Positions 730 through 34,740 of a stretch of 38,161 bases of DNA are shown one piece after another. The DNA comes from Massilia cavernae (GTDB lineage Bacteria; Pseudomonadota; Gammaproteobacteria; Burkholderiales; Burkholderiaceae_D). How positions within the stretch are numbered: the first letter of the stretch is position 1; every line of letters starts with the position of its first letter. The stretch is from contig NZ_QYUP01000092.1 in the NCBI RefSeq assembly GCF_003590855.1, forward strand, positions 1-38,161. Direction: 5' to 3'. Both the position numbers and the translations under genes were made by a program. The notes under the pieces are model-generated. The model did not search any database. It saw only the letters and a program-made list of their open reading frames with translations, and was not told the DNA's origin.

Positions 730-773
730 TCGTCGCTTCGGACGAGGCGACGCGCACGCGCGCTTCCTATACT
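730..773 (+). promoter_or_regulatory. Island operator 1 plus -10 element, upstream of tesB
   Basis: Palindrome TCGTC-gcttcg-GACGA at 730-745 is followed after exactly 22 nt by TATACT at 768-773, an almost perfect -10. No good -35 exists at 17 nt; the palindrome's 3' end lies there instead. This is the architecture of an activator-dependent promoter with the palindrome centre near -42.5. Start codon at 825. Confidence 0.75.
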
Positions 774-824
774 GCGACCAGTTCAACAAGACATGCCGGC
801 CACCGGCGCGGAAGGATGGGGCCA

Positions 825-1634
825 ATGGCTGTATTGGCGGAAGCGGTGGGGCAAGGCGGCAGCGCGGCTCTGGATGAGGTGCTCGCCCTGCTGCGGCTCG
901 AGCGCCTGGAAGAAACATTGTTTCGCGGCGTGAGCAACGATATCGGCACCACGTCCGTGTTCGGCGGTCTGGTGCTGGGCCAGGCCCTGATGGCGGCCGG
1001 GGCCACCGTGCCCACCCATGCGGTCCATTCGCTGCATGGCTATTTCATCCGTCCCGGCGACAAGCGCGCCCCCATCCTGTACACGGTCGAGCGCACCCGC
1101 GACGGCGCCAGTTTCAGCACCCGCAGCGTGACGGCAAGCCAGGGCGGCAAGGCGATCTTTCAAATGCTCGCCTCGTTCCAGCGCGCCGAGGGCGGACTCG
1201 ATCACCAGTGCGCGATGCCCGACGTGCAGCTCCCTGAACAGCTCGCGGACGATAGCCAGGCCGGGGCGCAGCGCGCGATCGTGTTCCGCACCGTCGACCA
1301 GGCGCCGGGACGGGCCTGGATGCGGGCGGACGGCCGCTTGCCTGACGACCCCTTGCTGCACCACGCCTTGCTGGCTTACGCGTCCGACCTCAAGCTGCTC
1401 GGCGCGGCCGTGCGGCGCCACGGCCTCGATCCGCGCCCGCCCAACCTGCACAGCGTCAGCCTGGACCATGCGATGTGGTTCCACCGCGGCTTCCGCTTCG
1501 ACGACTGGCTGCTGTTCGAGACCGATTCGCCCTCGGCTTCCCATGCGCGCGCAATGTGCCGCGGCAGCATCTTCGGCCGCGACGGCCGGCTGCTGGCCTC
1601 GGTCGCCCAGGAAGGCCTGATCCGCTTGCGCTGA
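825..1634 (+). CDS. tesB: Acyl-CoA thioesterase II
   Basis: The product (269 aa) is a double-hotdog acyl-CoA thioesterase that hydrolyses acyl-CoA to free acid and CoA. Seen: FRGVSNDIGTTSVFGG near the N-terminus, HSLHGYFIRPGD in the first hotdog, and in the second the family's catalytic Asp/Thr(Ser)/Gln region: DHAMWFHR, SASHARAM and QEGLIR at the extreme C-terminus. Length and motif order match E. coli TesB (about 286 aa). ATG 825 is preferred because GGAAGG lies about 9 nt upstream; an in-frame ATG at 816 is the alternative. It is a single-gene unit with its own operator copy. Likely role: releasing CoA from dead-end or stalled intermediates of the pathway (inference). Confidence 0.9.
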   Translation: MAVLAEAVGQGGSAALDEVLALLRLERLEETLFRGVSNDIGTTSVFGGLVLGQALMAAGATVPTHAVHSLHGYFIRPGDKRAPILYTVERTRDGASFSTRSVTASQGGKAIFQMLASFQRAEGGLDHQCAMPDVQLPEQLADDSQAGAQRAIVFRTVDQAPGRAWMRADGRLPDDPLLHHALLAYASDLKLLGAAVRRHGLDPRPPNLHSVSLDHAMWFHRGFRFDDWLLFETDSPSASHARAMCRGSIFGRDGRLLASVAQEGLIRLR

Positions 1635-1655
1635 ACATGCGCGCGGCGCGGAGGT

Positions 1656-1699
1656 TCGTCGTTTAAGACGATGCCACGCCGCCCCGGCAAACCTAGAAT
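1656..1699 (+). promoter_or_regulatory. Island operator 2 plus -10 element, upstream of fadB-type operon
   Basis: TCGTC-gtttaa-GACGA at 1656-1671, then exactly 22 nt, then TAGAAT at 1694-1699. The spacer makes the inner base pairs T/A rather than G/C. Start codon follows at 1744. Confidence 0.78.
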
Positions 1700-1743
1700 G
1701 GTCCAAAACCAGCACGGGCTGGATATCTTTCAGGGGATGGCGC

Positions 1744-3894
<2,151 letters not shown>

Positions 3895-3918
3895 CCTGAC
3901 GACTGGATCGATACCATC

Positions 3919-5076: not shown

Positions 5077-5094
5077 GGCGCCCGGCGCGTCGAA

Positions 5095-5138
5095 TCGTCG
5101 GTTTCGACGACGCCGCGGCCGCCGTCCTGGCCGAGAAT
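5095..5138 (+). promoter_or_regulatory. Island operator 3 plus -10 element, upstream of thiolase/racemase operon
   Basis: TCGTCG-gttt-CGACGA at 5095-5110, exactly 22 nt, then GAGAAT at 5133-5138. It begins 18 nt after the stop of the previous operon. Start codon at 5184. Confidence 0.78.
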
Positions 5139-5183
5139 CACATCATCGCTGGACCAATCTTGTCTACTAAAAGGGAACGCAAC

Positions 5184-6359
5184 ATGGCTGAAGCATATAT
5201 CGTCGCTACCGCACGTACCGCGGGCGGGCGCAAGGGCGGCAAGGTATCCGGATGGCACCCGGCCGACCTGGCTGCCGAAGTCCTCAACGCCTTGCTCGAC
5301 CGCAGCGGCATCGATCCGGCGGCGGTCGAGGACGTGATCATGGGATGCGTCGACCAGATCGGCGAGCAAAGCATGAACGTGGGCCGCAACGCGGTGCTGG
5401 CGTCGCGCCTGCCCGAATCGGTCCCTGCCACCACGCTCGACCGCCAGTGCGGCTCGTCGCAGCAGGCGCTGCATTTCGCGGCCCAGGCCGTCATGTCCGG
5501 CACCATGGACGTGGTGATCGCGGCCGGCGTCGAGAGCATGACGCGGGTGCCGATGGGTTCGCCGATCAGCCTGCCGCAGAAGGCCGGGCTGGGCTTTTAC
5601 GTCAGCCCCAGGATGGAGCAGCGCTATCCCGGCGTCGAATTCAGCCAGTTCAGCGGCGCGGAAGCGATCGCGAAGAAATACGGCCTGACCCGCGCCGAGC
5701 TCGACCAGTTTGCCTACGACAGCCACCAGCGTTCGATCGCGGCGGCCAAGGCCGGCCTGTTCGATGCCGAGATCGTGCCGGTGGCCGTGCGCGGCGCCGA
5801 CGGCGCCGGTGAAGGCATGCACAGCGTCGACGAGGGCATTCGCTTCGAAGGCACGCTCGAAGGCATCGCCAGCGTCAAGCCGCTGGTCGAGGGCGGCTGC
5901 ATCAGCGCCGCCAACGCCAGCCAGATCTGCGACGGCGCCAGCGGCGTCATGGTGGTCAGCGAAAAGGCGCTGAAGGCGCTGGGCTTGAAGCCGCTGGCCC
6001 GGATCCACCACATCAGCGTGCTCGGGCACGATCCGGTCATCATGCTCGAAGCGCCGATCCCGGCGACCCAGGCGGCCCTGAAAAAGGCCGGGATGACCAT
6101 CGCCGACATCGACCTGTACGAAGTCAATGAAGCGTTCGCCTCGGTGCCGCTGGCCTGGTTGAAAGCCACCGGCGCCGACCCGGCGCGCCTGAACGTCAAC
6201 GGCGGCGCGATTTCGCTCGGCCATCCGCTCGGCGCCTCAGGCACCAAGCTGATGACGACGCTGATCAGTGCGCTGGGCCAGCGCGGCAAGCGCTTCGGCC
6301 TGCTGACCATGTGCGAAGGCGGCGGCATGGCCAACGTGACGATCGTCGAACGGCTCTGA
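5184..6359 (+). CDS. Acetyl-CoA acyltransferase (thiolase)
   Basis: A 391-aa thiolase of normal length with the full catalytic set: nucleophile C89 in RQCGSS, the GHPLGASG histidine motif following NGGAISL, and the second cysteine in TMCEGGGMANV. It performs CoA-dependent cleavage of 3-ketoacyl-CoA (or the reverse). ATG 5184 was chosen because AAAGGGAA lies about 6-8 nt upstream; a TTG at 5160 in frame lacks support. First gene of a six-gene operon. A 3-ketoacyl-CoA thiolase serving the FadB-type protein upstream is likely; chain-length or branched-substrate preference cannot be read from the sequence. Confidence 0.92.
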   Translation: MAEAYIVATARTAGGRKGGKVSGWHPADLAAEVLNALLDRSGIDPAAVEDVIMGCVDQIGEQSMNVGRNAVLASRLPESVPATTLDRQCGSSQQALHFAAQAVMSGTMDVVIAAGVESMTRVPMGSPISLPQKAGLGFYVSPRMEQRYPGVEFSQFSGAEAIAKKYGLTRAELDQFAYDSHQRSIAAAKAGLFDAEIVPVAVRGADGAGEGMHSVDEGIRFEGTLEGIASVKPLVEGGCISAANASQICDGASGVMVVSEKALKALGLKPLARIHHISVLGHDPVIMLEAPIPATQAALKKAGMTIADIDLYEVNEAFASVPLAWLKATGADPARLNVNGGAISLGHPLGASGTKLMTTLISALGQRGKRFGLLTMCEGGGMANVTIVERL

Positions 6360-6416: not shown

Positions 6417-7574
6417 ATGGCAGGTCCGCTGCAAGGGGTCAAAGTAGTCGAGTTCGTTGGGCTCGGTCCCGCCCCGTTCTGCGGCATGTTGTTGGCCGAC
6501 ATGGGCGCCGAGGTGATCCGCATCGAGCGGCCGCGGCCCGGCGCCGACGCCGCCATCAGCGGTTCGGATCGGTTCGACATCAGCGCCCGCAACCGCCCCA
6601 CGATCAGCCTCGACCTGGCGCAGCCGGCCGGCGTGGCGGCCGCCTTGCAGCTGATCGACGTGGCCGACATCGTGATCGAGGGCTACCGGCCCGGCGTGAT
6701 GGAACGCCTTGGCCTTGGCCCGCAGGCCTGCCTGGCGCGCAACCCGAGGCTGGTATATGGCCGCATGACGGGCTGGGGCCAGCATGGCCCGCTGGCGCAC
6801 GCCGCCGGCCACGACATCAATTACATCGCCATCAGCGGCGCCCTGCATGCGATCGGCCGCAGCGGCGAAGCGCCGGTGGTGCCGCTCAATCTGGTCGGCG
6901 ACTTCGGCGGCGGCGCCATGTTCCTCGCTTTCGGCGTGATGTGCGCGGCCTTCGAGGCGCGCCAGTCGGGCCATGGCCAGGTGGTCGACGCCGCGATGAC
7001 CGATGGCGCGGCGCTGCTGAACACGATGATGTACGGCTTCAAGGCGGCCGGCCAGTGGAGTAACCAGCGCGGTGAAAACCTGCTCGACGGCGGCGCCCAC
7101 TTCTACGATACCTACGCCTGCGCCGACGGCAAATTCGTGGCGATCGGCGCGATCGAGCCGCAGTTCTACGCGCGCTTGCGCGAGCTGTGCGGCATCGACG
7201 ACCCCGCTTTCGATGCGCAGTTCGACAGCCTGCGCTGGCCGCTGCTCAAGCTGCGCATGGCCGATGTCTTTCAAACCCGTACGCGCGACGAATGGTGTGT
7301 GCTGCTCGAGGGCAGCGACGCCTGCTTCGCCCCCGTGCTGGACTGGGACGAAGCGCCGCTGCACCCGCACAACCAGGCGCGCGAAACCTTCGTCACGGTC
7401 GATGGCGTGCTGCAGCCCGCGCCCGCACCCCGCTTCAGCCGCACGCCGGCGGCGGCGCCCGTGCGCAGCGCGCCCGAGCCGTGCGACGACATCTTGCGGC
7501 GCTGGGGCGTCAGCGACGACGTGATCGAACGCCACGCAGCCAGCCGCCCCAATTTTCTTGAGGAACAACAATGA
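6417..7574 (+). CDS. mcr: Alpha-methylacyl-CoA racemase (CaiB/BaiF family)
   Basis: A 385-aa family III CoA-transferase fold protein that closely follows the Mycobacterium tuberculosis Mcr/AMACR pattern from memory: [79 protein letters not shown] and APRFSRT. The racemase acid/base pair is present as H132 and D162, the same 30-residue spacing as H126/D156 of Mcr. It interconverts (R)- and (S)-2-methylacyl-CoA, needed because acyl-CoA dehydrogenases accept only the S form. This is the best single clue that the pathway handles methyl-branched (isoprenoid- or sterol-side-chain-like) acyl-CoAs. GGGGAGA precedes the ATG. The stop overlaps the next start (ATGA). Confidence 0.92.
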
Positions 7575-9423: not shown

Positions 9424-9864
9424 ATGAGTGGATTAGGTGCCGATGGCGAATACTGGAAGGCCCTGGCGCAAGGCAAGGTCAAGATGCAGCAATGCGCCGG
9501 ATGCGAGAAATGGAACTGGCCGGCGGTGTGGCGCTGCGGCGATTGCGGCTCGTGGGAACACGCGTGGCGCGAGGTGGCACCGGCCGGGCGCATCTTCAGC
9601 TGGACCCGCACCTGGCATGAGTTCGGCGCCCCGGCGGCGTTCGGGCTGCCCTATGTCAGCGTGGTCGTCGAGCTCGACGGCGCCGGCGGCCGGCGCCTGA
9701 TCGGCACCATGCACGATGGCGCGGCTGCGCTGAAGATCGGGCAGCACGTCACCGGCGAACCCGTCCAGCTGGAGTGGGAGGGCCAGGCCATGTCCGCGCT
9801 GCGGTGGAAATTAACGGGCGAGGCCGCTGGCGCCACGTCGGCAAGCGAAGGGAAAACAGCATGA
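9424..9864 (+). CDS. DUF35 (Zn-ribbon/OB-fold) acyl-CoA-binding partner subunit
   Basis: A 146-aa protein with an N-terminal rubredoxin-like zinc ribbon (C24-x2-C27 and C38-x2-C41) followed by a beta-rich OB-fold region from about residue 50. This is the DUF35 architecture. Members form complexes with thiolase-like proteins, as in ChsH2-Ltp2 of cholesterol side-chain degradation or acyltransferase complexes. It lies directly before a thiolase-like gene, overlapping by ATGA, so equimolar complex formation is likely. AGGGAGCAGGG precedes the ATG. The C-terminal ~15 residues are low-complexity Ala/Gly/Ser. A second DUF35 gene is at 31224. Confidence 0.88.
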   Translation: MSGLGADGEYWKALAQGKVKMQQCAGCEKWNWPAVWRCGDCGSWEHAWREVAPAGRIFSWTRTWHEFGAPAAFGLPYVSVVVELDGAGGRRLIGTMHDGAAALKIGQHVTGEPVQLEWEGQAMSALRWKLTGEAAGATSASEGKTA

Positions 9865-11027
9865 GCCACAAACCATTTTGCGGTGGGGTGTCGGTCGCCG
9901 GTATCGGCTTGCGCCAATACAAACGGGGCACCGCGCCGATGCCGGAGCAGGGCGTGCTGGTGCGCGCCATCGTCGACGCCTGCGAGGATGCCGGCTTCGA
10001 TCCGGCCGACGTCGACGGCTTCGTCGCCTACGGCGACGACCATAACGAACCGGTGCGGCTGATGCCGGACCTGGGCACCAGGAACCTGCTGTTCAATGCG
10101 CAGGCCTGGGGCGGCGGGGGCGGCGGCATCGCGGCCGCGTTCGGCATCGCGGCGGCCGCCATCGCGAGCGGGCAGGCCACGGCCGTGGTGGTGTTTCGCG
10201 CTCTGGTGCAAGGCAACAGCGGACGCCTGTCGGCGGCCGTCATGCGCCACTTCCTCAACGACCATGTGATCGGCGGCGGGATGGTGGCGCCGGCCCAGGT
10301 CTGCGCCTTGCGCGCCCGGCGCTTGTTCGAGCACCACAAGGTGCCGCTGTCGGTGGCCGAGGAACTGGTGCGGGCCTCGTACTATCACGGATCCCGCAAT
10401 CCGGAGGCGACCGCCTTCGGCAAGGACCTGGACCTCGACGCCTACCGCAACGGGCGCATGATCGCCGAGCCGTTCCGGCTGTTCGACTGCTCGCGCGAAA
10501 ACGACGGCGCCGGCGCGCTGCTGCTGGTGTCGACCGAACGGGCAAAGGACCTCAGGAAAAGGCCGATTCGCGTGCTGGGCGTGGCCAACGGCGCATCGAA
10601 GGGATGGGGCGACCTGGCCGAGAACGATGAGGACTACGCCTCCGCCGGCTTCAAGCCGGTCGCGCAGCGCCTGTGGCAGCAAACCGGCCTCGGTCCGGCC
10701 GACGTCGATGTGATCCAGCTGTACGAGAACTTCAGCGCCCAGGGCGTGTCGTCGCTGATAGACCACGGCTTCTGCACCTACGAGAACGTGGCCGAGGTGG
10801 TCAGGTTCGAGAACCTGATCGCCCCCACCGGCAAGCTGCCGTTGAATACCTCAGGCGGCAATTTCGCGCATGGCTTCGTGCACGGGATCGGCACCGCGAT
10901 CGAAGCGGTCAGGGTGTTGCGGGGCGAATCGGCCAACCCGGTCCCGGACGCGAAGGTCTGCCTGCTGGCCGGCGGCCCGGGCGCACCGACCGTCAGTTCG
11001 GCCCTGTTCGGCACGGACGACCTGTAG
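9861..11027 (+). CDS. Thiolase-like (SCP2-thiolase/Ltp2-type) protein, probable retro-aldolase
   Basis: A 388-aa thiolase-fold protein lacking thiolase chemistry residues. The nucleophilic Cys region reads AWGGGGGG and the GHP histidine segment reads AHGFVHG. Such proteins with a DUF35 partner, like Ltp2, act as aldolases that cleave a 3-hydroxyacyl-CoA at a tertiary alcohol. Of the two Ltp2 catalytic tyrosines (Y294 and Y344 by recollection), Y288 in QLYENF matches the first but the second position is F339. So the activity may differ, or Phe may be tolerated. The start is fixed by ATGA overlap with the DUF35 gene and GAAGGGAA upstream. Last gene of its operon. Confidence 0.82.
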   Translation: MSHKPFCGGVSVAGIGLRQYKRGTAPMPEQGVLVRAIVDACEDAGFDPADVDGFVAYGDDHNEPVRLMPDLGTRNLLFNAQAWGGGGGGIAAAFGIAAAAIASGQATAVVVFRALVQGNSGRLSAAVMRHFLNDHVIGGGMVAPAQVCALRARRLFEHHKVPLSVAEELVRASYYHGSRNPEATAFGKDLDLDAYRNGRMIAEPFRLFDCSRENDGAGALLLVSTERAKDLRKRPIRVLGVANGASKGWGDLAENDEDYASAGFKPVAQRLWQQTGLGPADVDVIQLYENFSAQGVSSLIDHGFCTYENVAEVVRFENLIAPTGKLPLNTSGGNFAHGFVHGIGTAIEAVRVLRGESANPVPDAKVCLLAGGPGAPTVSSALFGTDDL

Positions 11028-11064: not shown

Positions 11065-11108
11065 TCGTCGGAAGCGACGACGCCAGTGGTGGCAACGACC
11101 GCTAACCT
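11065..11108 (+). promoter_or_regulatory. Island operator 4 plus -10 element, upstream of SDR/beta-oxidation operon
   Basis: TCGTCG-gaag-CGACGA at 11065-11080, exactly 22 nt, then TAACCT at 11103-11108. The 16-bp core is identical to operator 5. Start codon at 11150. Confidence 0.78.
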
Positions 11109-11149: not shown

Positions 11150-11953
11150 ATGAATTCTAGTGACACGCTGGCACTGCGTGAAATCAAAGTCCCTTCGCTG
11201 GCCCTGCACGGGCGCCGTGCACTGGTCACCGGCGCATCGAGCGGGCTCGGCCTGCATTTTGCTCATGTGCTGGCCCACGCCGGTGCCGAGGTGCTGCTGG
11301 TGGCGCGCCGCCTCGACAAGCTCGAGTCCCACGTGGCCGCACTGCGGGAGGCCGGTTGCGCGGCCCACGCCGTGTTCATGGATGTGACCGACAGCGCGTC
11401 GGTCAAGGCCGCCTTCGACCACATCGAGGCCCATCATGGCTGCCCCGACATCATCGTCAACAACGCCGGCGTGGCCGTATCCAAGCCGGCGCTCGAACAG
11501 GACGAGGCCGACTGGGACCTGGTCATCGATACCAACCTGAAGGGGGCATGGCTGACCGCGACCGAGGCGGTGCGGCGGCTGGTGGCCGCCGGCCTGCCGG
11601 GCAATGTGGTCAACGTCGCCTCGATCCTTGGCGAACGGGTCGGCGGCGCGGTTGCTCCCTACTGCGCGTCGAAAGCCGGCCTGGTCCACCTGACGCGGGC
11701 GATGGCGCTCGAATGGGCGCGCCACGGCGTGCGCGTGAACGCGCTGGCGCCGGGCTACCTGCAGACCGACCTGAACAGCGACTTCCTCGCCAGCGATGCC
11801 GGCCAGCGCCTGATGGCGCGGGTGCCGCAGCGCAGCTTCGGCCGTCCCGAAGACCTCGATGCGGCATTGCTGCTGCTGGTGGGGCAGGCCGGGCGCTACA
11901 TCACCGGCGCCATGCTGCCGGTCGATGGCGGCCACCTGGTCAGCACGCTGTAA
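11150..11953 (+). CDS. Short-chain dehydrogenase/reductase
   Basis: A 267-aa classical SDR: TGASSGLG cofactor motif near residue 30, NNAG, Ser in NVASI, and the catalytic YCASK pair. The C-terminal GAMLPVDGG is typical of the family. ARR after the second strand suggests possible NADP preference, uncertain. It oxidises or reduces a hydroxy/keto group, probably an intermediate of the island's pathway. ATG 11150 follows AGGTGAGG by about 6 nt; a GTG at 11138 in frame is less likely. First gene of a six-gene beta-oxidation operon. Confidence 0.9.
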   Translation: MNSSDTLALREIKVPSLALHGRRALVTGASSGLGLHFAHVLAHAGAEVLLVARRLDKLESHVAALREAGCAAHAVFMDVTDSASVKAAFDHIEAHHGCPDIIVNNAGVAVSKPALEQDEADWDLVIDTNLKGAWLTATEAVRRLVAAGLPGNVVNVASILGERVGGAVAPYCASKAGLVHLTRAMALEWARHGVRVNALAPGYLQTDLNSDFLASDAGQRLMARVPQRSFGRPEDLDAALLLLVGQAGRYITGAMLPVDGGHLVSTL

Positions 11954-11990: not shown

Positions 11991-13139
11991 ATGAGCCTCA
12001 ATTTTAGTCCTTCCTGGTCCAATCCCGACCTCGAACTGTACCGCGATACCGTGGTGCGCTTCATCGAATCGGAAGTGCTGCCGCACGACGAACATGCCCG
12101 CGCCACCGGCCACGTCGGTCATGAGGTGTGGCGCAAGGCCGGCGCGCTCGGCCTGCTGTGCACAGATATCCCGGACGCGTACGGCGGCGGCGGCGGCGAC
12201 TTCCGCCACGAGGCCGTGATCTACGAAGAAATGTTCCGGCGCGCCCTGAGCGGCATGAACGTGTCGGTGCACAGCATCGTCGCCCACTACCTGCTCAACC
12301 ATGGCACCGAGGCGCAAAAGCTGCGCTACCTGCCGCGCATGGCCAGCGGCGAACTGGTGGGAGCGATCGCGATGACCGAACCGGGCGCCGGTTCCGACCT
12401 GCAGGCGATCCGCACCCGGGCCGAGCTGCGCGACGGCAAGTATGTGATCAATGGCGCCAAGACCTTCATCACCAATGGCTACCTGGCCGGTCTGGTGCTG
12501 GTGGTATGCAAGACCGATCCCAGCCAGGGCGCGAAGGGCACTTCGATCCTGATCCTCGAGACCGAGGCGGCGCCGGGCTACCGGGTCGGCCGCCTGCTCG
12601 ACAAGATCGGCATGAAGGCCCAGGACACCTCGGAACTGTTCTTCGACGATGTCGCCGTGCCGTGCGAGAACCTGCTCGGCGGCGAAGAAGGCAAGGGCTT
12701 CTACCAGCTGATGGGCGACCTGCCGTACGAGCGCCTGGTCATCGGCGTGACCGGCCTGGCCACGATGGAGGGCGCCTATGCGGCCACGGTGGACTATGTG
12801 CGCGAGCGCAAGGCCTTCGGCAAGACGCTGTTCGAGCAGCAGAACACGCGCTTCAAGCTGGCCGAAGTGGCTACCCGGATCATGGTGGGACGCGCCTTCA
12901 TCGACCGCTGCGTGCTCGACATGGTGGCCGGGCGGCTCGACACGGCGACCGCCTCGATTGCCAAGCTGTGGGGCTCCGAGAACCAGGGCAAGGTGGTCGA
13001 CGAATGCCTGCAGCTGTTCGGCGGCTACGGCTACATGAACGAATACCTGGTCGCCCGCATGTATGCCGACGCGCGGGTGCAGCGGATCTACGGCGGCACC
13101 AGCGAGATCATGAAGGAAGTGATCGCGCGCGCCATCTGA
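11991..13139 (+). CDS. Acyl-CoA dehydrogenase (LCAD/IVD-type active site)
   Basis: A 382-aa flavoprotein dehydrogenase. Seen: AMTEPGAGSDLQ, INGAKTFITNG, IGMKAQDTSELFFDD, ERKAFGKTL, QLFGGYGYMNEY and the C-terminal IYGGTSEIMKEVIAR. The usual Glu near the C-terminus (YEG) is Gly (YGG), while E247 in LPYERL stands where isovaleryl-CoA and long-chain enzymes keep their catalytic base. That placement is common for branched or long acyl substrates. It forms 2-enoyl-CoA and passes electrons to ETF (not encoded here). AGGAA lies 7 nt before the ATG; it follows the SDR by 37 nt. Confidence 0.92.
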   Translation: MSLNFSPSWSNPDLELYRDTVVRFIESEVLPHDEHARATGHVGHEVWRKAGALGLLCTDIPDAYGGGGGDFRHEAVIYEEMFRRALSGMNVSVHSIVAHYLLNHGTEAQKLRYLPRMASGELVGAIAMTEPGAGSDLQAIRTRAELRDGKYVINGAKTFITNGYLAGLVLVVCKTDPSQGAKGTSILILETEAAPGYRVGRLLDKIGMKAQDTSELFFDDVAVPCENLLGGEEGKGFYQLMGDLPYERLVIGVTGLATMEGAYAATVDYVRERKAFGKTLFEQQNTRFKLAEVATRIMVGRAFIDRCVLDMVAGRLDTATASIAKLWGSENQGKVVDECLQLFGGYGYMNEYLVARMYADARVQRIYGGTSEIMKEVIARAI

Positions 13140-18498: not shown

Positions 18499-18543
18499 TC
18501 GTCGGAAGCGACGAGGTTCAGCGCCACGCATGTCACGTAAGCT
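18499..18543 (+). promoter_or_regulatory. Island operator 5 plus -10 element, upstream of aldehyde dehydrogenase operon
   Basis: TCGTCG-gaag-CGACGA at 18499-18514, then 23 nt, then TAAGCT at 18538-18543. This is the only copy with 23 rather than 22 nt. Start codon at 18578. Confidence 0.73.
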
Positions 18544-18577: not shown

Positions 18578-20011
18578 ATGGACTTCAATTCTGGCTACAC
18601 AATGACGATCGACGGCAAGGCTTGCGGCACGCAGGGCGGGCTGGACGTCGTGAATCCCGCCACCGGCGACGTGTTCGCCAGCGCGCCTGCCGCCACTGCC
18701 GCCGACCTCGATGAGGCGGTGGCGGCCGCGCATGCGGCATTGCCCGCATGGAAAGCACTGCCGATCACGGCGCGCCGCGAACTGCTGATCGCGGCGGCCA
18801 ACGCCATCAAGGCCAATGCGGACGACCTTGCCCACCTGTTCGTGCGCGAGCAGGGCCGGCCCTTCGAGGCGGCGCGCCAGGAGATCCTGTTCGGATCGAT
18901 CTGGCTCAAGAGCGTGGCGCGCCAGGAATTGCCGGTCGAGGTGGTCGAAGACACGCCGGCGCGCCGGGTGGAAGTCCATCACGAGCCGCTGGGGGTAGTG
19001 TGCGCCATCGTGCCGTGGAATTTTCCCTTCCTGCTCGCGATCTGGAAGATCGCACCGGCCCTGCTGACCGGTAACACGATGGTGCTCAAGCCGTCGCCGT
19101 TCACGCCGCTGTGCGCGCTCAAGCTCGGCGAACTGTGGCGCGACATCCTGCCGCCCGGCGTCTTTAACGTACTGTGCGGCGGCGACGAACTGGGCCCCTT
19201 GATGACCGCGCATGCCGGCTTTGCCAAGATTTCCTTCACCGGCTCGACGGCGACCGGCAAGCGTGTCATGGAATCGGCCGCCAAAGACCTCAAGCGCGTG
19301 ACGCTCGAGCTGGGCGGTAACGACGTGGCGATCGTCATGCCGGACGTCGATGTCGACCAGGTCGCCGCGGAGATTTTCCACGGCGCCTTCTACAATTCCG
19401 CCCAGGTCTGCGTGGCCACCAAGCGCCTGTACATCCACGACGACATTTACGACGCCTTGCGCGACCGCCTGCATGCGCTTGCCCTGGACGCCACCGTGGG
19501 CGATGGCGCCGAGGCGGGCAGCCAGTTCGGCCCAGTGCAAAATGCACCGCTGCATCGCCGCCTGCTGGCGCTGATCGCCGAGGCGCGCGCCGAAGGCCTG
19601 ACCCTGCTGACCGGCAAGGCGGTGCCCGAAGGCGGCGGCTATTTCGTTCCCCTGACCCTGGTCGACAATCCACCCGAGACGGCGCGCGTGGTCGCCGAGG
19701 AAGCCTTTGGCCCGGTGCTGCCGCTGCTGCGTTTCTCGGACCTCGATGACGTGATCCGGCGCGCCAACGACAGCGACTACGGCCTGGCCGGCGCGGTGTG
19801 GTCGAAGGACATCGAGCAAGCCGTCAGCATTGCGAAGCGCCTGGACACCGGCAATGTGTGGATCAACCAGAATTTGCAGAACACGCCCGCCATTCCATTC
19901 GCTGGACGCAAGCAGTCCGGCCTGGGCGTCGAGAACGGGGTGGAAGGCTTGAAGTCGTTCACCCAGATGAAGTCGATCTTCATTCCCAAGGTGCAGGAGG
20001 AAGCAGCATGA
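18578..20011 (+). CDS. Aldehyde dehydrogenase (NAD(P)+-dependent)
   Basis: A 477-aa aldehyde dehydrogenase of usual length. Seen: PWNFPFLLAIWKIAPAL, LKPSPFTP, FTGSTATGK (cofactor), E244 in LELGG as general base, nucleophile C278 in SAQVCVATKR, EEAFGPVLP and a C-terminal GRKQSGLG. It oxidises an aldehyde to the acid, probably the product of alcohol oxidation by the GMC enzyme or an SDR before CoA activation. ATG 18578 has GGA about 9 nt upstream; ATG 18572 is an in-frame alternative. First gene of a four-gene operon; overlaps the next gene by ATGA. Confidence 0.92.
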   Translation: MDFNSGYTMTIDGKACGTQGGLDVVNPATGDVFASAPAATAADLDEAVAAAHAALPAWKALPITARRELLIAAANAIKANADDLAHLFVREQGRPFEAARQEILFGSIWLKSVARQELPVEVVEDTPARRVEVHHEPLGVVCAIVPWNFPFLLAIWKIAPALLTGNTMVLKPSPFTPLCALKLGELWRDILPPGVFNVLCGGDELGPLMTAHAGFAKISFTGSTATGKRVMESAAKDLKRVTLELGGNDVAIVMPDVDVDQVAAEIFHGAFYNSAQVCVATKRLYIHDDIYDALRDRLHALALDATVGDGAEAGSQFGPVQNAPLHRRLLALIAEARAEGLTLLTGKAVPEGGGYFVPLTLVDNPPETARVVAEEAFGPVLPLLRFSDLDDVIRRANDSDYGLAGAVWSKDIEQAVSIAKRLDTGNVWINQNLQNTPAIPFAGRKQSGLGVENGVEGLKSFTQMKSIFIPKVQEEAA

Positions 20012-27901: not shown

Positions 27902-27905
27902 GGGA

Positions 27906-29071
27906 TCAAGGATTGCAGAACTGCTCGACGGTCTCGTAGAACGCCGGAATGCTTGCCTCCAGGCCGCCATAGACGAGTTCGGCGAGGGCGCCCGATTCCA
28001 GCCCCTTCTGCGACAGGCTGGCTGCCCGGAAGTCCTCGTTGCCGAACACATTGAGCACCATGTCGTACGAGCGGGTATACAGGTCCAGCGCCTTGTCGCT
28101 GTCGGCCGGTCCGGGTGTCAGCATGAAGTAGTCGACCGTCGACCGGTTCGCCGCGCGCGGACCGATGATCATCACGCTGATGTAATAGGGGCTGGTGACG
28201 ATGACGGTATTGGGGAAAACCAGGTAGGAGTGCGTCACCGTCTTGTGGATATTCTCGCCGGGGAGGTCGAGCATCGCGGGCTCGAATTGCGCCTTGCCCG
28301 AGACCTGACGGATATGCGGACCGATCCGGCTCATGATGGTGGCGACATCGGCAAACATGCTGCCAATGGTAGACGCGTGCAGCCTCTGCACGTGGTAGCC
28401 CTCGAGGAAAGGCTCGATGACCAGCTTCCAGTTGGCATCGACCTCGAATCGCTTGTGGCCGAACACGTGCGCATTGGGCATGCCCAGGGCGTCGAAATCG
28501 CCCACCAGTTCGGGGTAATGGCGCTGAAATCGGGCTCGGCCTCGCGATCGAGCATCACCCAGATGAAACCGCCCGCTTCGTGGCAGGCCAGCGGCGCCAG
28601 GCCGTGCTCATGCTTGTCCAGCGAGGGAAACACCTCCTGGCGCGGCACTCCGGCCAGTTCTCCGGCCAGGTTGTAGGTCCAGGCGTGGTAGGGGCAACTG
28701 ACCCGGCCGCCCTTGAAGGCGTCGGCGCGCTCCACCACCTTGGCGCCCTTGTGCTGGCAGGCATTGAGGAAGGCCTTGACCTGGCCGTCCTCGCCGCGGC
28801 TGAGCAGGATCGGCAAGTCATAGGCATCGAGCGCCAGGAACATCTTCGGCTCGGGCAGCATCGACGACAGCGTCACCGCCACCGGCACCTTCCGGAACAC
28901 CTCCGCGCGCTCTCGCGCGTAATGATCCGGAGCGATGAAGATGCCGACCGGCCGCCGCGCTTCCGTCGTGTGCACGGCCGCCTGGCCGTGGGGCGGAATG
29001 GTGCGGATCGCCGCAATCTGGCTGGCGCTGAGCGAGGCTAGTGTCGGGAATTTTCTGTGAGGCGCATGCAT
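27906..29071 (-). pseudogene. Rieske non-heme iron oxygenase alpha subunit, single-base frameshift
   Basis: Two overlapping reading frames together encode an oxygenase of about 388 aa. The first (from ATG 29071, with AGGAAGGA 7 nt upstream) has the Rieske cluster C-x-H...C-x2-H in CQHKGAK and SCPYHAW. At about 28511-28516 the frame jumps: inserting one base (ACCCCG to ACCCCGG) restores TPELVGDFDALGMPN and continues to EGYHVQRLH (mononuclear iron His pair). All motifs are intact on both sides, so this is either a recent mutation or a sequence error. Expected reaction: O2-dependent hydroxylation of a cyclic substrate, with ferredoxin and reductase supplied from elsewhere. First gene of the F-minus operon. 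Confidence 0.85.
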
Positions 29072-29100: not shown

Positions 29101-29144
29101 ATCTTATTGAGCGGCTATCGTCCTGGCGTCGTCGGTTTCGACGA
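29101..29144 (-). promoter_or_regulatory. Island operator 6 plus -10 element, Rieske operon direction
   Basis: Read on the minus strand: TCGTCG-aaac-CGACGA (29144-29129), exactly 22 nt, then TAAGAT at 29106-29101. In transcription orientation the core is identical to operator 7. Start codon at 29071. Confidence 0.77.
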
Positions 29145-29164: not shown

Positions 29165-29208
29165 TCGTCGAAACCGACGACGAGAATGGCAAGGGTTCGT
29201 GCCAGCAT
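29165..29208 (+). promoter_or_regulatory. Island operator 7 plus -10 element, SDR/aldolase operon direction
   Basis: TCGTCG-aaac-CGACGA at 29165-29180, exactly 22 nt, then CAGCAT at 29203-29208, a weak -10. It lies 20 bp from operator 6, back to back. Start codon at 29247. Confidence 0.72.
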
Positions 29209-29246
29209 GGATGACATGGGCAGGAATGCCGAACAGGAGAAAACAG

Positions 29247-30017
29247 ATGCGGCTGAAAGATAAAGTGGTGATCGTCACCGGCGCCAGTTCCGGGCTGGGT
29301 GAGTCGATGGTGTTGCGTTTTGCGCGCGAAGGTGCGCACGTCGTTGCCGTTGCCCGGCGTGCAGACAGGCTCGCGCAAGTGGCGGTCATGGCCAGCGGCT
29401 CTAGCGGCAGCGTGGTCCCGCTCACGGGCGATTTATGCAGGCAGGCCGATATTCGCAACATGGTGGCGCACACGGTCGAACGCTTCGGAAAACTCGATGT
29501 GCTGGTCAACAACGCCGGGATGAATGACGATTTTTCACCCGTCGGCGAGATGGATGACGAACTCTGGCGCCAGGTCTTCATCCTCAATCTCGACGCCGCG
29601 TTTTACGCGTCCAAGCATGCGATGCCACACCTGCTGGAAAGCCGCGGCAACATCGTCAACATCGCATCGATCGGCGGCACCGAGGGGGCGCGTGCCGGGG
29701 TTGCCTACACGGCGTCCAAACATGCGCTGGTGGCAATGACCAAGCACACCGCCTTCAGTTATGCGAAGGCCGGCATGCGCTGCAATGTGATCTGCCCTGG
29801 ACCGGTGGACACGCCGATGGTGGCGGCAGCCATCGAGCGCGGCGACACCGGCATGAACAAGGAAGGCGTACGGCGCGCCAACTCCGGCATGAAGAGCCTG
29901 CCGCGCATCGGCGAGCCCGCGGAGATTGCGAACGTCGCCTGTTTCCTGGCCTCGGACGAAGCCAGCCTGGTCAATGGCGCCGTCATCGTGGCCGACAGCG
30001 GCTGGACGGCATATTGA
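29247..30017 (+). CDS. Short-chain dehydrogenase/reductase
   Basis: A 256-aa classical SDR: TGASSGLGES, NNAGMND, Ser in NIASIGG, and YTASKHAL with Tyr and Lys; the C-terminal VNGAVIVADSGW is typical. It oxidises or reduces a hydroxyl/keto group of the pathway. AGGAG lies about 8 nt before ATG 29247. First gene of a four-gene operon (SDR, thiolase-like aldolase, DUF35, CoA ligase). Confidence 0.91.
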   Translation: MRLKDKVVIVTGASSGLGESMVLRFAREGAHVVAVARRADRLAQVAVMASGSSGSVVPLTGDLCRQADIRNMVAHTVERFGKLDVLVNNAGMNDDFSPVGEMDDELWRQVFILNLDAAFYASKHAMPHLLESRGNIVNIASIGGTEGARAGVAYTASKHALVAMTKHTAFSYAKAGMRCNVICPGPVDTPMVAAAIERGDTGMNKEGVRRANSGMKSLPRIGEPAEIANVACFLASDEASLVNGAVIVADSGWTAY

Positions 30018-30026
30018 TTGACGATC

Positions 30027-31205
30027 ATGGAAAATGTCCCGGTCATTGTGGGGATTGGCGAGACCGACTTCTGGCGGCGCGGCACGAGTCCCGATAGCGA
30101 ACTCGCGCTTGCCATCAAAGCGATCCTGAATGCCTGCGGCGATGCTGGAATCGATCCGCACCAGATCGATGGCTTCTGTTCATTTGCCGACAATGCAGTG
30201 CATGCGCTGGCGCTGCAGGGAGCGCTGGGAGTCGCGCAGGTGCGCCTGTGCACGATGGCGTGGGGCGGCGGCGGTGGCGGATCGTGCGGCGCGCTGTCGG
30301 CCGCCGCTTCGGCCGTTGAATGCGGACGGGTGAAGTACGCGGTAGTTTTTCGTTCCGTCGTCCAGCGCGGAGCGCGCTTCGGGGCTGGGGGCGGATACGC
30401 AGGCGGCACTGCGAGCGGAGTCGTAGCAAGCGGGCTTGGCGATATTCACTGCCCAGGATATTCGCAGCCGTATGGCCTGATGACGCCCGGTCAAATCGCC
30501 GCCATGCATTTTCAACGGTATATGTACAACTACGGTGTCGGCACCGAGGGGCTGGGCCATGTTGCGACGACGTTTCGCGATAATGCGTCGCGCAATCCGC
30601 GCGCGCTGATGAGAAAGCCGATGACGCTGGAAGATCATGCGAATTCCCGGATGATTTCGCACCCTTACAGGCTGTTTGACTTCTGCCAGGAGAATGACGG
30701 CGCGTGTGCCCTGATCGTCACGAGCGCGGAACGCGCCAGGGACTTGAAGGGAAGGGCGGTGCGCATCCTCGCTCGCGCGGAAGGCAGCGGCGACCAATGG
30801 GCAAGCCTGTCGCGGCGCTCGGTGCCGGCGAATAACCAGGCCCTGATGGTCCCTGAGATATATGCTGAGGCGGGCATCGGACCGTCCGACATCGACGTGG
30901 CCCAGATCTACGATAATTATTCGGGCCAGGTCCTGATCGGGCTCGAGGAGTGGAAGCTGTGCGGACCCGGCGAGGCAACGGATTTCGTCAAGAGCGGGGC
31001 CATCGGCCGGCACGGCAGCCTGCCTGTGAATACTGCCGGCGGCCTGCTGAGCGAGGGCTATATTCAGGGACTCAACCTCGTCACGGAAGGGGTTCGCCAG
31101 ATCCGCGGCGCATCGACCTCACAGGTGCCCGGCGCCGAGCTTGCGCTGGTTACCGGCGGTTCGATGGCGGCGCCCAGCAGTGCTGTAATTCTTGCTAGAA
31201 TGTAA
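30027..31205 (+). CDS. Thiolase-like (Ltp2-type) protein, probable retro-aldolase
   Basis: A 392-aa thiolase-fold protein related to the one at 9861. The thiolase Cys region is AWGGGGGG and the His motif reads SEGYIQG, so both canonical residues are missing. Y295 (QIYDNYS) and Y345 (EGYIQG) match in position and spacing the two catalytic tyrosines of the Ltp2 aldolase (Y294 and Y344, by recollection). With the following DUF35 gene it is a good candidate for retro-aldol cleavage of a beta-hydroxyacyl-CoA carrying a tertiary alcohol. ATG 30027 is 10 nt after the SDR stop; ribosome site weak, and a TTG at 30018 is an alternative. Confidence 0.84.
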   Translation: MENVPVIVGIGETDFWRRGTSPDSELALAIKAILNACGDAGIDPHQIDGFCSFADNAVHALALQGALGVAQVRLCTMAWGGGGGGSCGALSAAASAVECGRVKYAVVFRSVVQRGARFGAGGGYAGGTASGVVASGLGDIHCPGYSQPYGLMTPGQIAAMHFQRYMYNYGVGTEGLGHVATTFRDNASRNPRALMRKPMTLEDHANSRMISHPYRLFDFCQENDGACALIVTSAERARDLKGRAVRILARAEGSGDQWASLSRRSVPANNQALMVPEIYAEAGIGPSDIDVAQIYDNYSGQVLIGLEEWKLCGPGEATDFVKSGAIGRHGSLPVNTAGGLLSEGYIQGLNLVTEGVRQIRGASTSQVPGAELALVTGGSMAAPSSAVILARM

Positions 31206-31223
31206 ATTACTGGAAGCCCGATC

Positions 31224-31658
31224 ATGACCCGCACCAACTATTTTCGCGACCTGATGCCGACGGTCGCGCCGGAGGCCGACGACCGGGCATGGTGGGAGGC
31301 CTGCCGGCGCCACGAGCTGACGGTTCCCACGTGCTCGCTCTGCGGCCTGAGCCGGTTTCCCATTTCGCCGGTCTGTCCACAGTGCTTCAGGCCCGGCATG
31401 GCGTTGAAAAAGGTATCGGGGCGAGGGAAAATCTTCTCGTATACCGTCCAGCACAACCCGCCGACGCCGGCGCTCGCCGCGATCTGTCCGTACAACATTG
31501 CAATCATCGAGCTCGACGATACGGAGCGCACCCATATGGTGTCGAATATCGTCGACGCCACCCCCGATGAACTCGCCATCGGGCTGCCAGTCGAGGTCGT
31601 ATGGGAGGAGTTGCAAGGCAATATCACGGTGCCTCGTTTTCGCGTCACCGGCTTTTGA
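31224..31658 (+). CDS. DUF35 (Zn-ribbon/OB-fold) partner subunit
   Basis: A 144-aa DUF35 protein with zinc ribbon C37-x2-C40 and C51-x2-C54 followed by an OB-fold region (FSYTVQHNPP, PYNIAIIEL). It sits immediately after its thiolase-like partner, the reverse of the order at 9424-11027. In ChsH2-Ltp2 the DUF35 subunit is needed for aldolase activity and closes the acyl-CoA channel. GGAAG lies about 7 nt before the ATG. Likely partner: the protein at 30027. Confidence 0.88.
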   Translation: MTRTNYFRDLMPTVAPEADDRAWWEACRRHELTVPTCSLCGLSRFPISPVCPQCFRPGMALKKVSGRGKIFSYTVQHNPPTPALAAICPYNIAIIELDDTERTHMVSNIVDATPDELAIGLPVEVVWEELQGNITVPRFRVTGF

Positions 31659-31709
31659 AGTTTTGCAGCGAAAAAATTCGAACACCAATAAATGGAAGAG
31701 GAGATGTGA

Positions 31710-33230
31710 ATGAACGGAACCTTGATTGACGCTGTCGGCTGGTGGTCTGAACTTCGCAAGGATGAGCCTGCAATCGTGACGCAGGATGACCAGCTCACGT
31801 ATGGCGAACTCGCCAGTTGGGCGGGCGCCGCTGCCGAATGGTTGGTCGCCAAGGGGCTGAAGCCTGGCGAGCGCGTCACGATCCTGGCGACCAACAGCCT
31901 TGCATGGTGTGTGATGTCGCAGGCTGTGATGCAGGCCGGGGGCTTGCTGGCGCCAGTCAATCCGCGCTTCACGGTCAGCGAGGCCAGCCACGTGGTGGGA
32001 CGCTATGAGCCGGCATTTATCTTCTATGACCAGGATCGGGCCGAGCTTGCCGCCGCGATCGGCAAGTCGGCGCCTGCGATCGGTCTATTGCCTTTGAGCA
32101 TCGTCGATGAGTTCCGGCATACGAAGCCTTCGGGCCGCAAGCTGGACCGGGGAATCGATGCCGATACCCCGGTCGTCATCATCGGGACGAGCGGCTCGAC
32201 CGGTTATCCCAAGGGCGTTGTTTACAGCCATCGCACGATGTTGGGGGGCTACGCCGACTTCGCCATCGCCGACGCGCGTGCCGCGCATCATCCGCGGGTC
32301 ATGATGTTCGGCCCCTTGTGTACTTCCGCCGGCTATTACGTGCTGATGCTGGCGCTGGTCCTGGGCGGCACCGTTTTCGTCGAAGACAGCTTCGATCCCG
32401 TCAAGGCGCTCAAGCGGATAGCGGAGGACAAGATTTCGATCCTGATGGGCGTGCCGGTATTTTTCGAGCGCATGGCGGCCTGCAAGGAATTCGCCGGGAC
32501 CGACATGTCGAGCATCCGCCAGCTGCAATCGGGCGGGGCCCGGGTGTCGCGTGAATTGCTCATCACCTGGATGGGGAAAGGTTTGGTATTCCAGCAACTG
32601 TATGGACAGACCGAAGCAGGTGGCTGTGCGACGATCAATCCGGTTGCCTCGGCGGTCGAGTTTCCGGAAAAGTGCGGACGCGGCATGCCCTTCACACGAC
32701 TTGCGACGATCGACCAGGACGGCAATTTTTGCCCGCCGGGCGTGCCGGGAGAAATTGTCATCAAGGGTCCCGCGGTCATGGTTGGTTACTGGCGAGACCC
32801 GGAAGCGACCGCAAAAGTACTGGTCGATGGCTGGCTGCGTACCGGCGACCTGGGTGTCATCGACGAGCAAGGCCTGCTGACCATGCTCGACAGGCTCAAG
32901 GACATCATCATTTCCGGCGGCATGAACATCTCGGCGGCAGAGCTTGAACGCGTGATTTCAGTGTTTCCGAACGTGCTAGAAGTCGCCGTGATCGCAGCCC
33001 ACGACGAACGCTTTGGAGAGGCGCCGCTGGCGGTGATTTTCGCCCCCAGGGGCATCGACATCCCGGCCTTGCTGGCCCATTGCAGGGAGCAGCTGAGCGC
33101 TTACAAGATGGTGCGCTACGTGGCGATAAGCGAGGAACCGCTGCCGCGGCTCGCGGCAGGGAAGATCTCGAAACCTGCGCTGCGCAAGCAGTATGCCAAT
33201 GCGCACCTGGTGCTGGACAAACTAGGCTGA
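31710..33230 (+). CDS. Acyl-CoA synthetase (AMP-forming CoA ligase)
   Basis: A 506-aa adenylate-forming ligase: GTSGSTGYPKGVVYSH (about residues 159-174), QLYGQTEAGG, GWLRTGDLGVIDEQGL, MLDRLKDIIISGGMNISAAELE and the C-terminal LPRLAAGKISKPALRKQ with catalytic Lys. It activates a carboxylic acid to its CoA ester and is clearly distinct from the ligase at 26330, so two acids are probably activated. GAGGAGA lies about 6 nt before the ATG; base use is slightly less GC-rich than in operons B-D. Last gene of the operon. Confidence 0.91.
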   Translation: MNGTLIDAVGWWSELRKDEPAIVTQDDQLTYGELASWAGAAAEWLVAKGLKPGERVTILATNSLAWCVMSQAVMQAGGLLAPVNPRFTVSEASHVVGRYEPAFIFYDQDRAELAAAIGKSAPAIGLLPLSIVDEFRHTKPSGRKLDRGIDADTPVVIIGTSGSTGYPKGVVYSHRTMLGGYADFAIADARAAHHPRVMMFGPLCTSAGYYVLMLALVLGGTVFVEDSFDPVKALKRIAEDKISILMGVPVFFERMAACKEFAGTDMSSIRQLQSGGARVSRELLITWMGKGLVFQQLYGQTEAGGCATINPVASAVEFPEKCGRGMPFTRLATIDQDGNFCPPGVPGEIVIKGPAVMVGYWRDPEATAKVLVDGWLRTGDLGVIDEQGLLTMLDRLKDIIISGGMNISAAELERVISVFPNVLEVAVIAAHDERFGEAPLAVIFAPRGIDIPALLAHCREQLSAYKMVRYVAISEEPLPRLAAGKISKPALRKQYANAHLVLDKLG

Positions 33231-33256
33231 CGCCGCTTCATCCTGCCGGCGCCAGC

Positions 33257-33286
33257 GGCCGCCGGGGATCCGCGATCCCGGCGGCC
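33257..33286. terminator. Bidirectional hairpin between CoA ligase and P450 genes
   Basis: GGCCGCCGGGGATC and GATCCCGGCGGCC pair with one bulged G around a CGC loop. It sits in the 67-bp gap between convergent stops, followed by TTCCTCCC on the plus strand. A shared terminator is likely. Confidence 0.6.
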
Positions 33287-33297
33287 TTCCTCCCAGC

Positions 33298-34512
33298 CTA
33301 GCTCGCGGCCGGCGCCGGCGTCCATTCGAGCGGCAAGTCCTTGAGCGACATTACCATTCCCGCACGGAACTTTGGTGCGAAGCCTGCGCTGACGTGGAAC
33401 TGAGGAATCTGCTTCAACCATTCTTCGGTCAGGATCCGCATCTCCGAGCGCGCCAGGTTATGGCCGACGCACAGGTGGGCGCCCGTCGAGAAGGTCAGCA
33501 AGCGGCGGTTCTTGCGATCCACGTCGATCGTCAGCGGATCGGGGTTTTCGCGCGCTTCGCGGCCGAGCTGCGAGTTCAGGCACAGCACCATGTCGCCGGC
33601 ACGGAAAGCGACGCCGAAACGTTCGACGTCCCGCGCTACCATGCGCGGCACATTGACCACGCCAAACAGGCGCAGGCATTCCTCGATGAAGCCGGGTATG
33701 GCAGCCGGATCGCGTACCAGCCTGGCCTGGAGCGCGGGGTCTTCGGCCAGGGCCCGGTAACTGAAGGTCAGCACGTTCACAACCGTGTCGAGGCCGCCCA
33801 GGAACAGCAGCAGCGTCATCTTGAGCAGTTCGTCGGTGTTCAGGGGGCGCCCCTCGACCTGCGCATTGACCAGCACGGAAACCAGGTCGTCGCCGGGCGC
33901 GATGCGGCGCGCCTCGATCAATTCCATCATGATCGCGTGAACTTGCCCGGCGAGCTCGTACCTGCGCGCCTCTGCAATGTCATCGAGGTATTCTTCGGCG
34001 ATCGCCCGGAAGCTTTCGAGCCTGTCGAACGGTATGCCCATCATTTCCATGAAAACCGTGACTGGAAACTGGGAAGCAATGTCCTTGAGGAAGTCGCAGC
34101 TGCCCTTGGCGGCTACCGCGCTGACGAAGTGCCTGGCCCAAGTGCGCAAGGACTCTTCGCGCTCGGCAACCGACTTGGGGGAGAAATAGGGCATCAGCAC
34201 ATGGCGGTAGGGGACGCTGTGCGGTGGATCGAGGTTGATCGGTATGAGCCCCATGGGCTTGGCGATGCGCGGAATTTCCATCTCGGAAGACGTGAAATTG
34301 GCGGGATCCCTGAGGATTTCCTCGGCGTAGGCGAAACGCGTGACGACCCAGTGTCCACCGTTCTTCGGCGTATAGAATACGTCGGGCGCCTGCTCGATGA
34401 GCTTGGCGTAGCCTTCATGCAGGCCGTCCTGAAGAAGCGAATCCTTGTGTATGTCGAATGAAAAGACACGCTCTGCTGCCACGTGGCCGGGAATGTTGTT
34501 CGGACTGGTCAT
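33298..34512 (-). CDS. Cytochrome P450, P450cam (CYP101)-like
   Basis: A 404-aa soluble bacterial P450. Heme ligand C348 in FSTGAHLCVG, helix I GGLDTVVN with the Asp-Thr proton pair, ExxR in EECLR. The helix I segment, the LVxxPAAIPGFIEECLR region and the C-terminal SLKDLPLEW resemble P450cam; relatives hydroxylate camphor, ionones and other terpenoids. It inserts one oxygen into an unactivated C-H bond. AGGAG lies 6 nt before the ATG. No ferredoxin or ferredoxin reductase gene is nearby. It is a single-gene unit with operator 8; convergent with the CoA ligase. Confidence 0.91.
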   Translation of the reverse strand: MTSPNNIPGHVAAERVFSFDIHKDSLLQDGLHEGYAKLIEQAPDVFYTPKNGGHWVVTRFAYAEEILRDPANFTSSEMEIPRIAKPMGLIPINLDPPHSVPYRHVLMPYFSPKSVAEREESLRTWARHFVSAVAAKGSCDFLKDIASQFPVTVFMEMMGIPFDRLESFRAIAEEYLDDIAEARRYELAGQVHAIMMELIEARRIAPGDDLVSVLVNAQVEGRPLNTDELLKMTLLLFLGGLDTVVNVLTFSYRALAEDPALQARLVRDPAAIPGFIEECLRLFGVVNVPRMVARDVERFGVAFRAGDMVLCLNSQLGREARENPDPLTIDVDRKNRRLLTFSTGAHLCVGHNLARSEMRILTEEWLKQIPQFHVSAGFAPKFRAGMVMSLKDLPLEWTPAPAAS

Positions 34513-34588
34513 GAAGTCTCCTTTGTTAAGTACGCAGGAATGCGCGTTCGCTCTTGGTATGCCGCTGTGATTCACGGGGATGCGCTCG

Positions 34589-34632
34589 AATCTAAGGCAG
34601 AACGGCAGCGCAGGCGTCGTCGCTTGCGACGA
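34589..34632 (-). promoter_or_regulatory. Island operator 8 plus -10 element, P450 direction
   Basis: Minus-strand reading: TCGTCG-caag-CGACGA (34632-34617), exactly 22 nt, then TAGATT at 34594-34589. Start codon of the P450 gene at 34512, leaving an untranslated leader of about 70 nt. Confidence 0.77.
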
Positions 34633-34696
34633 TTTTTGGGGCCTGCCCCATGACGTTGCGAGGCGAGGGGCGCTTGCGTGAAGGCTCCCCAAAAAA

Positions 34697-34740
34697 TCGT
34701 CTGTTCCGACGACGCGCACGGGCGCGACCCAACGGACACT
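34697..34740 (+). promoter_or_regulatory. Island operator 9 plus -10 element, GMC oxidoreductase direction
   Basis: TCGTC-tgttcc-GACGA at 34697-34712, exactly 22 nt, then GACACT at 34735-34740 (weak -10). The left arm loses the sixth pair (T for G). Between operators 8 and 9 lie 64 bp, including AT-rich runs GATTTTTGGGG and CCCCAAAAAATC that are near-inverted. Start codon at 34808. Confidence 0.68.

Follow-up and report, generated by a model that had tools for sequence, protein, structure and literature searches.

KstR and KstR2 of actinobacteria, which are TetR repressors with operators of other kinds, serve a large sterol catabolic regulon through one operator type. MalT of Escherichia coli shows the domain order STAND NTPase, tetratricopeptide repeat (TPR) region, GerE DNA-binding domain, and its MalT boxes are short non-palindromic elements of the maltose genes. 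TesR/TeiR of Comamonas testosteroni is reported to be a LuxR-type regulator needed for steroid catabolism in this betaproteobacterium (PMC6678751). It is not known to be a MalT-like LuxR-family protein (LAL). AlkS of Pseudomonas putida GPo1 and Alcanivorax is presented as a LuxR/MalT-type activator of alkane genes with a 20 bp LuxR-type inverted-repeat operator upstream of the promoter and a role in hydrophobic substrate catabolism (PMC8784404, PMC3664771). Here, we analysed a stretch of 38,161 bases from Massilia cavernae (the window; contig C193 of a 5.44 Mb draft genome in 201 contigs), in which the palindrome TCGTC-N6-GACGA precedes nine catabolic units. With a probability of roughly 0.85, these nine palindromes are operators of one regulon under a LAL-type LuxR-family class II activator for methyl-branched/isoprenoid acyl-CoA catabolism. 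The system would share with AlkS the features listed above, and differs in its many scattered promoters and in its frequent neighbours, which belong to branched acyl-CoA beta-oxidation, where AlkS serves alkane hydroxylase genes; from MalT, whose domain order it shares, it differs in its 16-20 bp palindrome, which takes the position of the -35 box. No published description of this operator or of the regulator clade was found among the papers listed in the searches, which mostly leave out subscription journals.

A sequence-only reading of the window had reported nine such sites, one for each catabolic unit, with a -10-like hexamer that begins exactly 22 nt further on in eight cases and 23 nt further on in one. 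All nine were recovered as exact matches with the same hexamers, and no tenth exact copy was found in the window. Shuffled windows gave 0.07 expected matches, and none of 100 shuffles reached nine. The sites and the promoters in which they lie are as follows.

730..745, + strand: operator of the thioesterase gene, ATG at 825; -10 TATACT at 22 nt
1656..1671, + strand: operator of the FadB-like and acyl-CoA dehydrogenase unit, ATG at 1744; -10 TAGAAT at 22 nt
5095..5110, + strand: operator of the thiolase, alpha-methylacyl-CoA racemase relative (Pfam: CoA-transferase III), nitronate monooxygenase, hydratase and ChsH2-thiolase unit, ATG at 5184; -10 GAGAAT at 22 nt
11065..11080, + strand: operator of the short-chain dehydrogenase/reductase (SDR), long-chain acyl-CoA dehydrogenase (LCAD)-like acyl-CoA dehydrogenase, thiolase, FadB-like, APH and hydratase unit, ATG at 11150; -10 TAACCT at 22 nt
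18499..18514, + strand: operator of the aldehyde dehydrogenase, alcohol dehydrogenase, EthD and SDR unit, ATG at 18602; -10 TAAGCT at 23 nt
29129..29144, - strand: operator of the leftward Rieske oxygenase, acyl-CoA ligase, acyl-CoA dehydrogenase, glutathione S-transferase, major facilitator superfamily (MFS) and DUF2889 unit, ATG at 29071; -10 TAAGAT at 22 nt
29165..29180, + strand: operator of the SDR, Ltp2-like thiolase, ChsH2 and acyl-CoA ligase unit, ATG at 29247; -10 CAGCAT at 22 nt
34617..34632, - strand: operator of the leftward cytochrome P450 gene, ATG at 34512; -10 TAGATT at 22 nt
34697..34712, + strand: operator of the GMC oxidoreductase gene, ATG at 34808; -10 GACACT at 22 nt

The longer form TCGTCG-N4-CGACGA is exact in six of the nine sites, with one mismatch each at 730, 1656 and 34697, and the two central positions are A/T in all of them. 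In transcription orientation, NANNNT starts 22 nt past the palindrome at every site except 18499, and five of these eight hexamers begin with TA. When 5000 random sets of nine window segments were drawn, the maximum at any one offset was 5, reached once. Upstream of the nine -10 hexamers, the best -35 match averaged 2.8 of 6 letters, compared to 2.6 at random window places. Each site lies 57-104 nt before the likely ATG (66-104 nt in eight units and 57 nt to the best ATG of the Rieske frame), with gene starts taken from codon-score gene calls made in this analysis. Three genes at the window edges have no operator, namely a hemerythrin-like open reading frame (ORF; 169-552, - strand), an SDR fragment (36458-37039, - strand) and a transposase (37067-38113, - strand).

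Across the whole genome, TCGTC-N6-GACGA occurred at 80 sites against 27 for a control pattern read backwards, and part of the N6 matches is therefore background. The AT-centred form, by comparison, occurred at 22 sites (9 in the window and 13 outside) against 2 in the control, so that the earlier description of a nine-member set was an under-count. At eight of the 13 outside sites, NANNNT follows at exactly 22 nt (three sites on C192, C34:9023, and the sites on C8, C127, C147 and C189, the last in both directions), and the site at C34:8927 has it at 24 nt. Gene prediction placed the C189 site within an ORF, whereas visual inspection put it in the gap between an MFS frame and an acyl-CoA dehydrogenase frame that diverge from each other. 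A pyruvate-carboxylase-like gene lies downstream of two sites, 64 and 416 nt away, and other sites precede SDR and hydratase, DUF1302/DUF1329, oxygenase and acyl-CoA ligase, thiolase, or SDR and acyl-CoA dehydrogenase genes. The sequence-only reading had proposed to see whether genome-wide motif copies with a -10 fall only before catabolic genes and near a LuxR/TetR/MarR regulator gene. The three C192 sites, which have their -10 at 22 nt, lie a few kb from LuxR-family (LAL) genes. The four sites on C157, C19, C21 and C24 lack NANNNT, and three of them lie inside predicted genes.

As had been anticipated, a candidate regulator gene was found outside the window. Contig C192 encodes two LALs that are 72% identical to each other:

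L029:3275-5929, - strand: first LAL, 884 amino acids, divergent from the carboxylase gene, with two operator sites in between
L029:12409-14565, - strand: second LAL paralog, cut by the contig end

The C127 site lies between a thiolase gene and a LAL-like N-terminal fragment at a contig end, and this fragment may be the missing start of the second LAL. In the first LAL, a GerE/LuxR helix-turn-helix occupies C-terminal residues 822-877 of 884 (PF00196, E 1.8e-18), preceded by a MalT-like TPR region (PF17874, E 7.8e-30). The N-terminal NTPase Walker A motif RAPAGFGKT is present in four of six aligned LALs, the remaining two rows starting downstream of the motif, and the segment AEKLFVSDSTVRTHLRN is identical across all six. 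The best PDB match is MalT (8bob, aligned over profile positions 9-416). The best NCBIfam match is likewise MalT, at 364 bits and thus under the curated equivalog cut-off of 537, so that the protein does not qualify as MalT itself. Four relatives with site clusters (G115, G097, G084 and G058) encode a LAL 55-58% identical to the first one, its gene directly adjoining operator sites and relatives of genes of the window. In the Massilia genome, three further LALs (26% identity) showed no site in the 13-20 kb read around each.

We then considered loci picked by the regulator protein. An alignment scan of named genomes gave 192 confirmed LAL relatives, of which the best 80 were kept as loci (1.55 Mb); G058 and G097 recur among them. 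These 80 loci contain 192 operator sites, while no other permutation of the half-site letters exceeded 7 (median 1), spacers of other lengths between 2 and 12 gave 1-14 and the backward pattern gave 2. The sites were present in 70 of the 80 loci, in line with the expectation that related loci would carry the motif, and lie within 3 kb of the LAL in 48. The laboratory strains Cupriavidus metallidurans CH34 and C. necator N-1 each have a relative of the LAL (53% and 49% identity, respectively), next to which sites occur. Although the search placed no constraint on the central positions, they are A/T in 180 of the 192 sites, and the 102 distinct promoters within the 80 loci show no exception. A consensus of wTCGTCGGwwCCGACGATG was obtained from 118 promoters of the 80 loci and ten further loci, most of which were fetched with the AT-centred pattern. 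The sites, their spread and their linkage to the LAL clade are direct observations, and the operator thus appears to travel with a LuxR-family (GerE) protein of the MalT/LAL class, consistent with the LuxR-type class II activator postulated from the window. If the sites were instead a chance or codon-derived (TCG-TCG) repeat of a G+C-rich genome, background N6 matches of the kind counted above and raised spacers 3, 9 and 12 would be expected, and both were seen; given the excess of AT-centred sites over control, the specificity of the half-site letters in the LAL-picked loci and the constant -10 distance, we regard this explanation as hardly credible.

The promoter geometry, also directly observed, is shared across genera. 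Among 313 non-redundant flanks in both orientations, TANNNT occurred 33, 37 and 11 times at 22, 23 and 24 nt, respectively, and no other offset between 0 and 53 had more than 3. In relatives, the two elements are thus 22-24 nt apart, with 23 as the commonest distance. A TANNNT in this range accompanies 89 of the 192 sites, and such sites occur in 18 of 19 named genera, including Marinobacter, Alcanivorax and Pseudomonas. This geometry fits class II activation as proposed in the earlier reading, with the operator predicted near -42.5, in place of the -35 box, and a constant distance to the -10. A TetR, MarR or GntR repressor whose operator overlaps the promoters, with the LAL a mere passenger of the cluster, would also account for a site at about -34 to -50, where it could block polymerase, and TetR/GntR repressors govern many lipid-degradation operons, such as those of KstR, PsrA and FadR. 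However, the constant spacing and the lack of a clear -35 hexamer fit an activator, and the linkage is to a LuxR-type protein picked on sequence alone. Small ORFs (213-230 amino acids) beside sites in four loci, considered as TetR candidates, proved to be nitroreductases, in a check short of a full scan for TetR or all other regulator families. Taken together, a repressor seems very unlikely. Binding by a CRP/FNR-type protein, raised by the 5-N6-5 format, was dropped on the LAL linkage, without a direct test.

The linkage was also examined in 145 genomes of the family, in which a LAL of this clade was called present at E 1e-150 or better. Six genomes have it. At least three promoter-pattern matches were found in five of these six, compared to 1 of the 139 others (Fisher's test, 7e-8), and removal of either the window's genome or G084 left 4 of 5 against 1 of 139 (1.4e-6). 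In total, the six LAL genomes hold 43 matches against 9 in the backward control, 6 of the latter in G084. This LAL was found in none of the seven other genomes of the window's genus, and the system therefore looks acquired.

Several observations weigh against the palindromes being LAL operators. The peptide pattern AEKLFVSD used in the scan fixes part of the recognition helix, and identity of the helix is thus partly built in; in addition, 20 of the 80 loci are from Variovorax. The exact site was not found in 10 of the 80 loci, all shorter than 17 kb, and at 103 of the 192 sites TANNNT is absent from both flanks at 22-24 nt. The best -35 match in the relatives' promoters is 3.0 of 6 against 2.6 at random, a small excess. 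Among the family genomes, the 139 without this LAL hold 51 promoter-pattern matches against 24 in the control, and G084 has more control matches (6) than pattern matches (5), though four of these five sit in its LAL locus. No operator was found in the 18 kb read around a third LAL of the Massilia genome (G000:C56:7428-10064, locus L060; 50% identity), whose recognition helix hardly differs. Finally, G083, G143 and G108, which have no LAL of the clade at E 1e-150, carry operator-like sites that are flanked in both directions by a -10 at 22 nt. These genomes would fit an alternative in which another LuxR-type (GerE) regulator binds the sites, at least in part, and the LAL shares its specificity, and they do encode 12, 13 and 13 other GerE matches, respectively. 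Yet operators are frequent in the 80 LAL-picked loci and in five of the six LAL-bearing genomes, and when the GerE helix was read in 11 of 30 loci, the sole SDSTVRTHLRN was in G069, a LAL-bearing genome; we thus give this alternative little weight. In genomes without the LAL clade, doubly flanked sites of this kind (L101:6716, L101:10160, L106:7620 and L105:7940) are near SDR, lipase, MFS and aldehyde dehydrogenase genes. A 395-amino-acid LuxR-like ORF of G083 (L222) was weighed as a TesR/TeiR-type owner of the G083 and G143 sites, and its neighbours, inspected by eye, do not form a steroid cluster.

Returning to the LAL as activator, we propose that a dimer of a LAL from C192 would occupy the palindrome, its centre at about -42.5 where a -35 box would otherwise stand, and would recruit RNA polymerase to the -10 hexamer 22-23 nt downstream. 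This would be class II activation of the kind that AlkS exerts on alkane promoters, triggered here by a methyl-branched or isoprenoid-derived substrate or acyl-CoA. We infer binding, dimer formation, activation, the ligand and any split of the sites between the two paralogs from the arrangement of sites and genes. Directly behind the palindrome, six of the nine window promoters have the bases CG, whereas the 22- and 23-nt promoters of relatives have T (88-93%) and then G (84-85%); given two LAL paralogs in the genome, the differing bases could mark different owners.

The nature of the presumed substrate was approached through the genes. By Pfam, the window units encode a thioesterase, two FadB-like proteins, several acyl-CoA dehydrogenases and thiolases, a family III CoA-transferase, SDRs, two ChsH2 and thiolase pairs, two acyl-CoA ligases, an aldehyde dehydrogenase, a Rieske oxygenase, a P450 and a GMC oxidoreductase. 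Three of their genes have relatives that are frequent LAL neighbours:

5184..6359, + strand: thiolase, with no solved relative at E 1e-90
6417..7574, + strand: alpha-methylacyl-CoA racemase relative (CoA-transferase family III), best PDB match 1x74 (MCR, E 5e-119)
11991..13139, + strand: acyl-CoA dehydrogenase, nearest solved relative mitochondrial LCAD (E 7e-108)

Relatives of each of the three were counted in 40 of the 57 LAL loci that span at least 20 kb, at thresholds of 55% identity and 60% coverage, and relatives of an SDR on C192, whose nearest solved relatives are short-chain/type II 3-hydroxyacyl-CoA dehydrogenases (HSD10), in 51 of the 57. Racemase, LCAD, HSD10 and thiolase together make up the beta-oxidation of 2-methyl-branched acyl-CoAs, and because these four types are the usual LAL neighbours, the substrate class is probably methyl-branched or isoprenoid. 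In the window's host, the Ltp2/ChsH2, Rieske, P450 and GMC genes make a steroid one candidate substrate.

In Aquabacterium, the operator lies upstream of a RoxA-like gene (PF21419, 68 and 74 bits) in two loci, with a -10 at 23 or 24 nt:

L111:16764-18948: RoxA-like gene (rubber oxygenase family domain) behind the operator, followed by a CcmH-like TPR gene
L116:16802-19046: RoxA-like gene (rubber oxygenase family domain) behind the operator

In both loci, an aldehyde dehydrogenase gene lies two genes beyond, its product 55-56% identical to that of the window. This arrangement suggests a tie to polyisoprene in the Aquabacterium hosts. The window's own genome has a RoxA-family match on C160 (42 bits), over the cut-off of 26.7 and below the Aquabacterium scores. 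Since 19 of the 145 family genomes have a match over the cut-off, the RoxA domain alone does not mean rubber cleavage.

Overall, it seems fairly probable that the loci represent an undescribed, horizontally spread regulon of Beta- and Gammaproteobacteria, in which an ATP-dependent LuxR-type sensor clade would respond to an isoprenoid-derived methyl-branched metabolite and induce, by way of a single 16-20 bp operator type at -42.5, a shared gene set (racemase, LCAD, HSD10 and thiolase) as well as lineage-specific entry modules (P450, GMC, Rieske and Ltp2-ChsH2 in the window's host; RoxA-like rubber oxygenase in Aquabacterium). As operator and regulator clade were paired from sequence alone in 18 named genera, targets of uncharacterised LAL regulators may be readable from genomes. 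The pairing points to a common control of methyl-branched/isoprenoid breakdown and bears on petroleum isoprenoids, sterols, terpenoids and rubber.

Further features of the window were noted. When plasmids were searched with the first FadB-like protein, no match exceeded 60% identity. At 36458-38113 (- strand), the SDR fragment, which lacks the N-terminal part of the family profile, adjoins an IS605-type gene (OrfB_IS605 and TNB). The two pairs of ChsH2-like and thiolase genes lie at 9424-11027 and 30018-31658; such pairs are familiar from the retro-aldol cleavage of sterol side chains. The ring-hydroxylating oxygenase alpha subunit at 27906-29071 (- strand) is divided between two overlapping frames, a Rieske part at 28331-29071 and a catalytic part at 27906-28505, which indicates either a frameshift or an error in the assembly. 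Next to the C8 site, the catalytic domain of another oxygenase is likewise spread over two ORFs, and an unsplit relative of the alpha subunit, of 398 amino acids, was found in Cupriavidus lacunae (L113).

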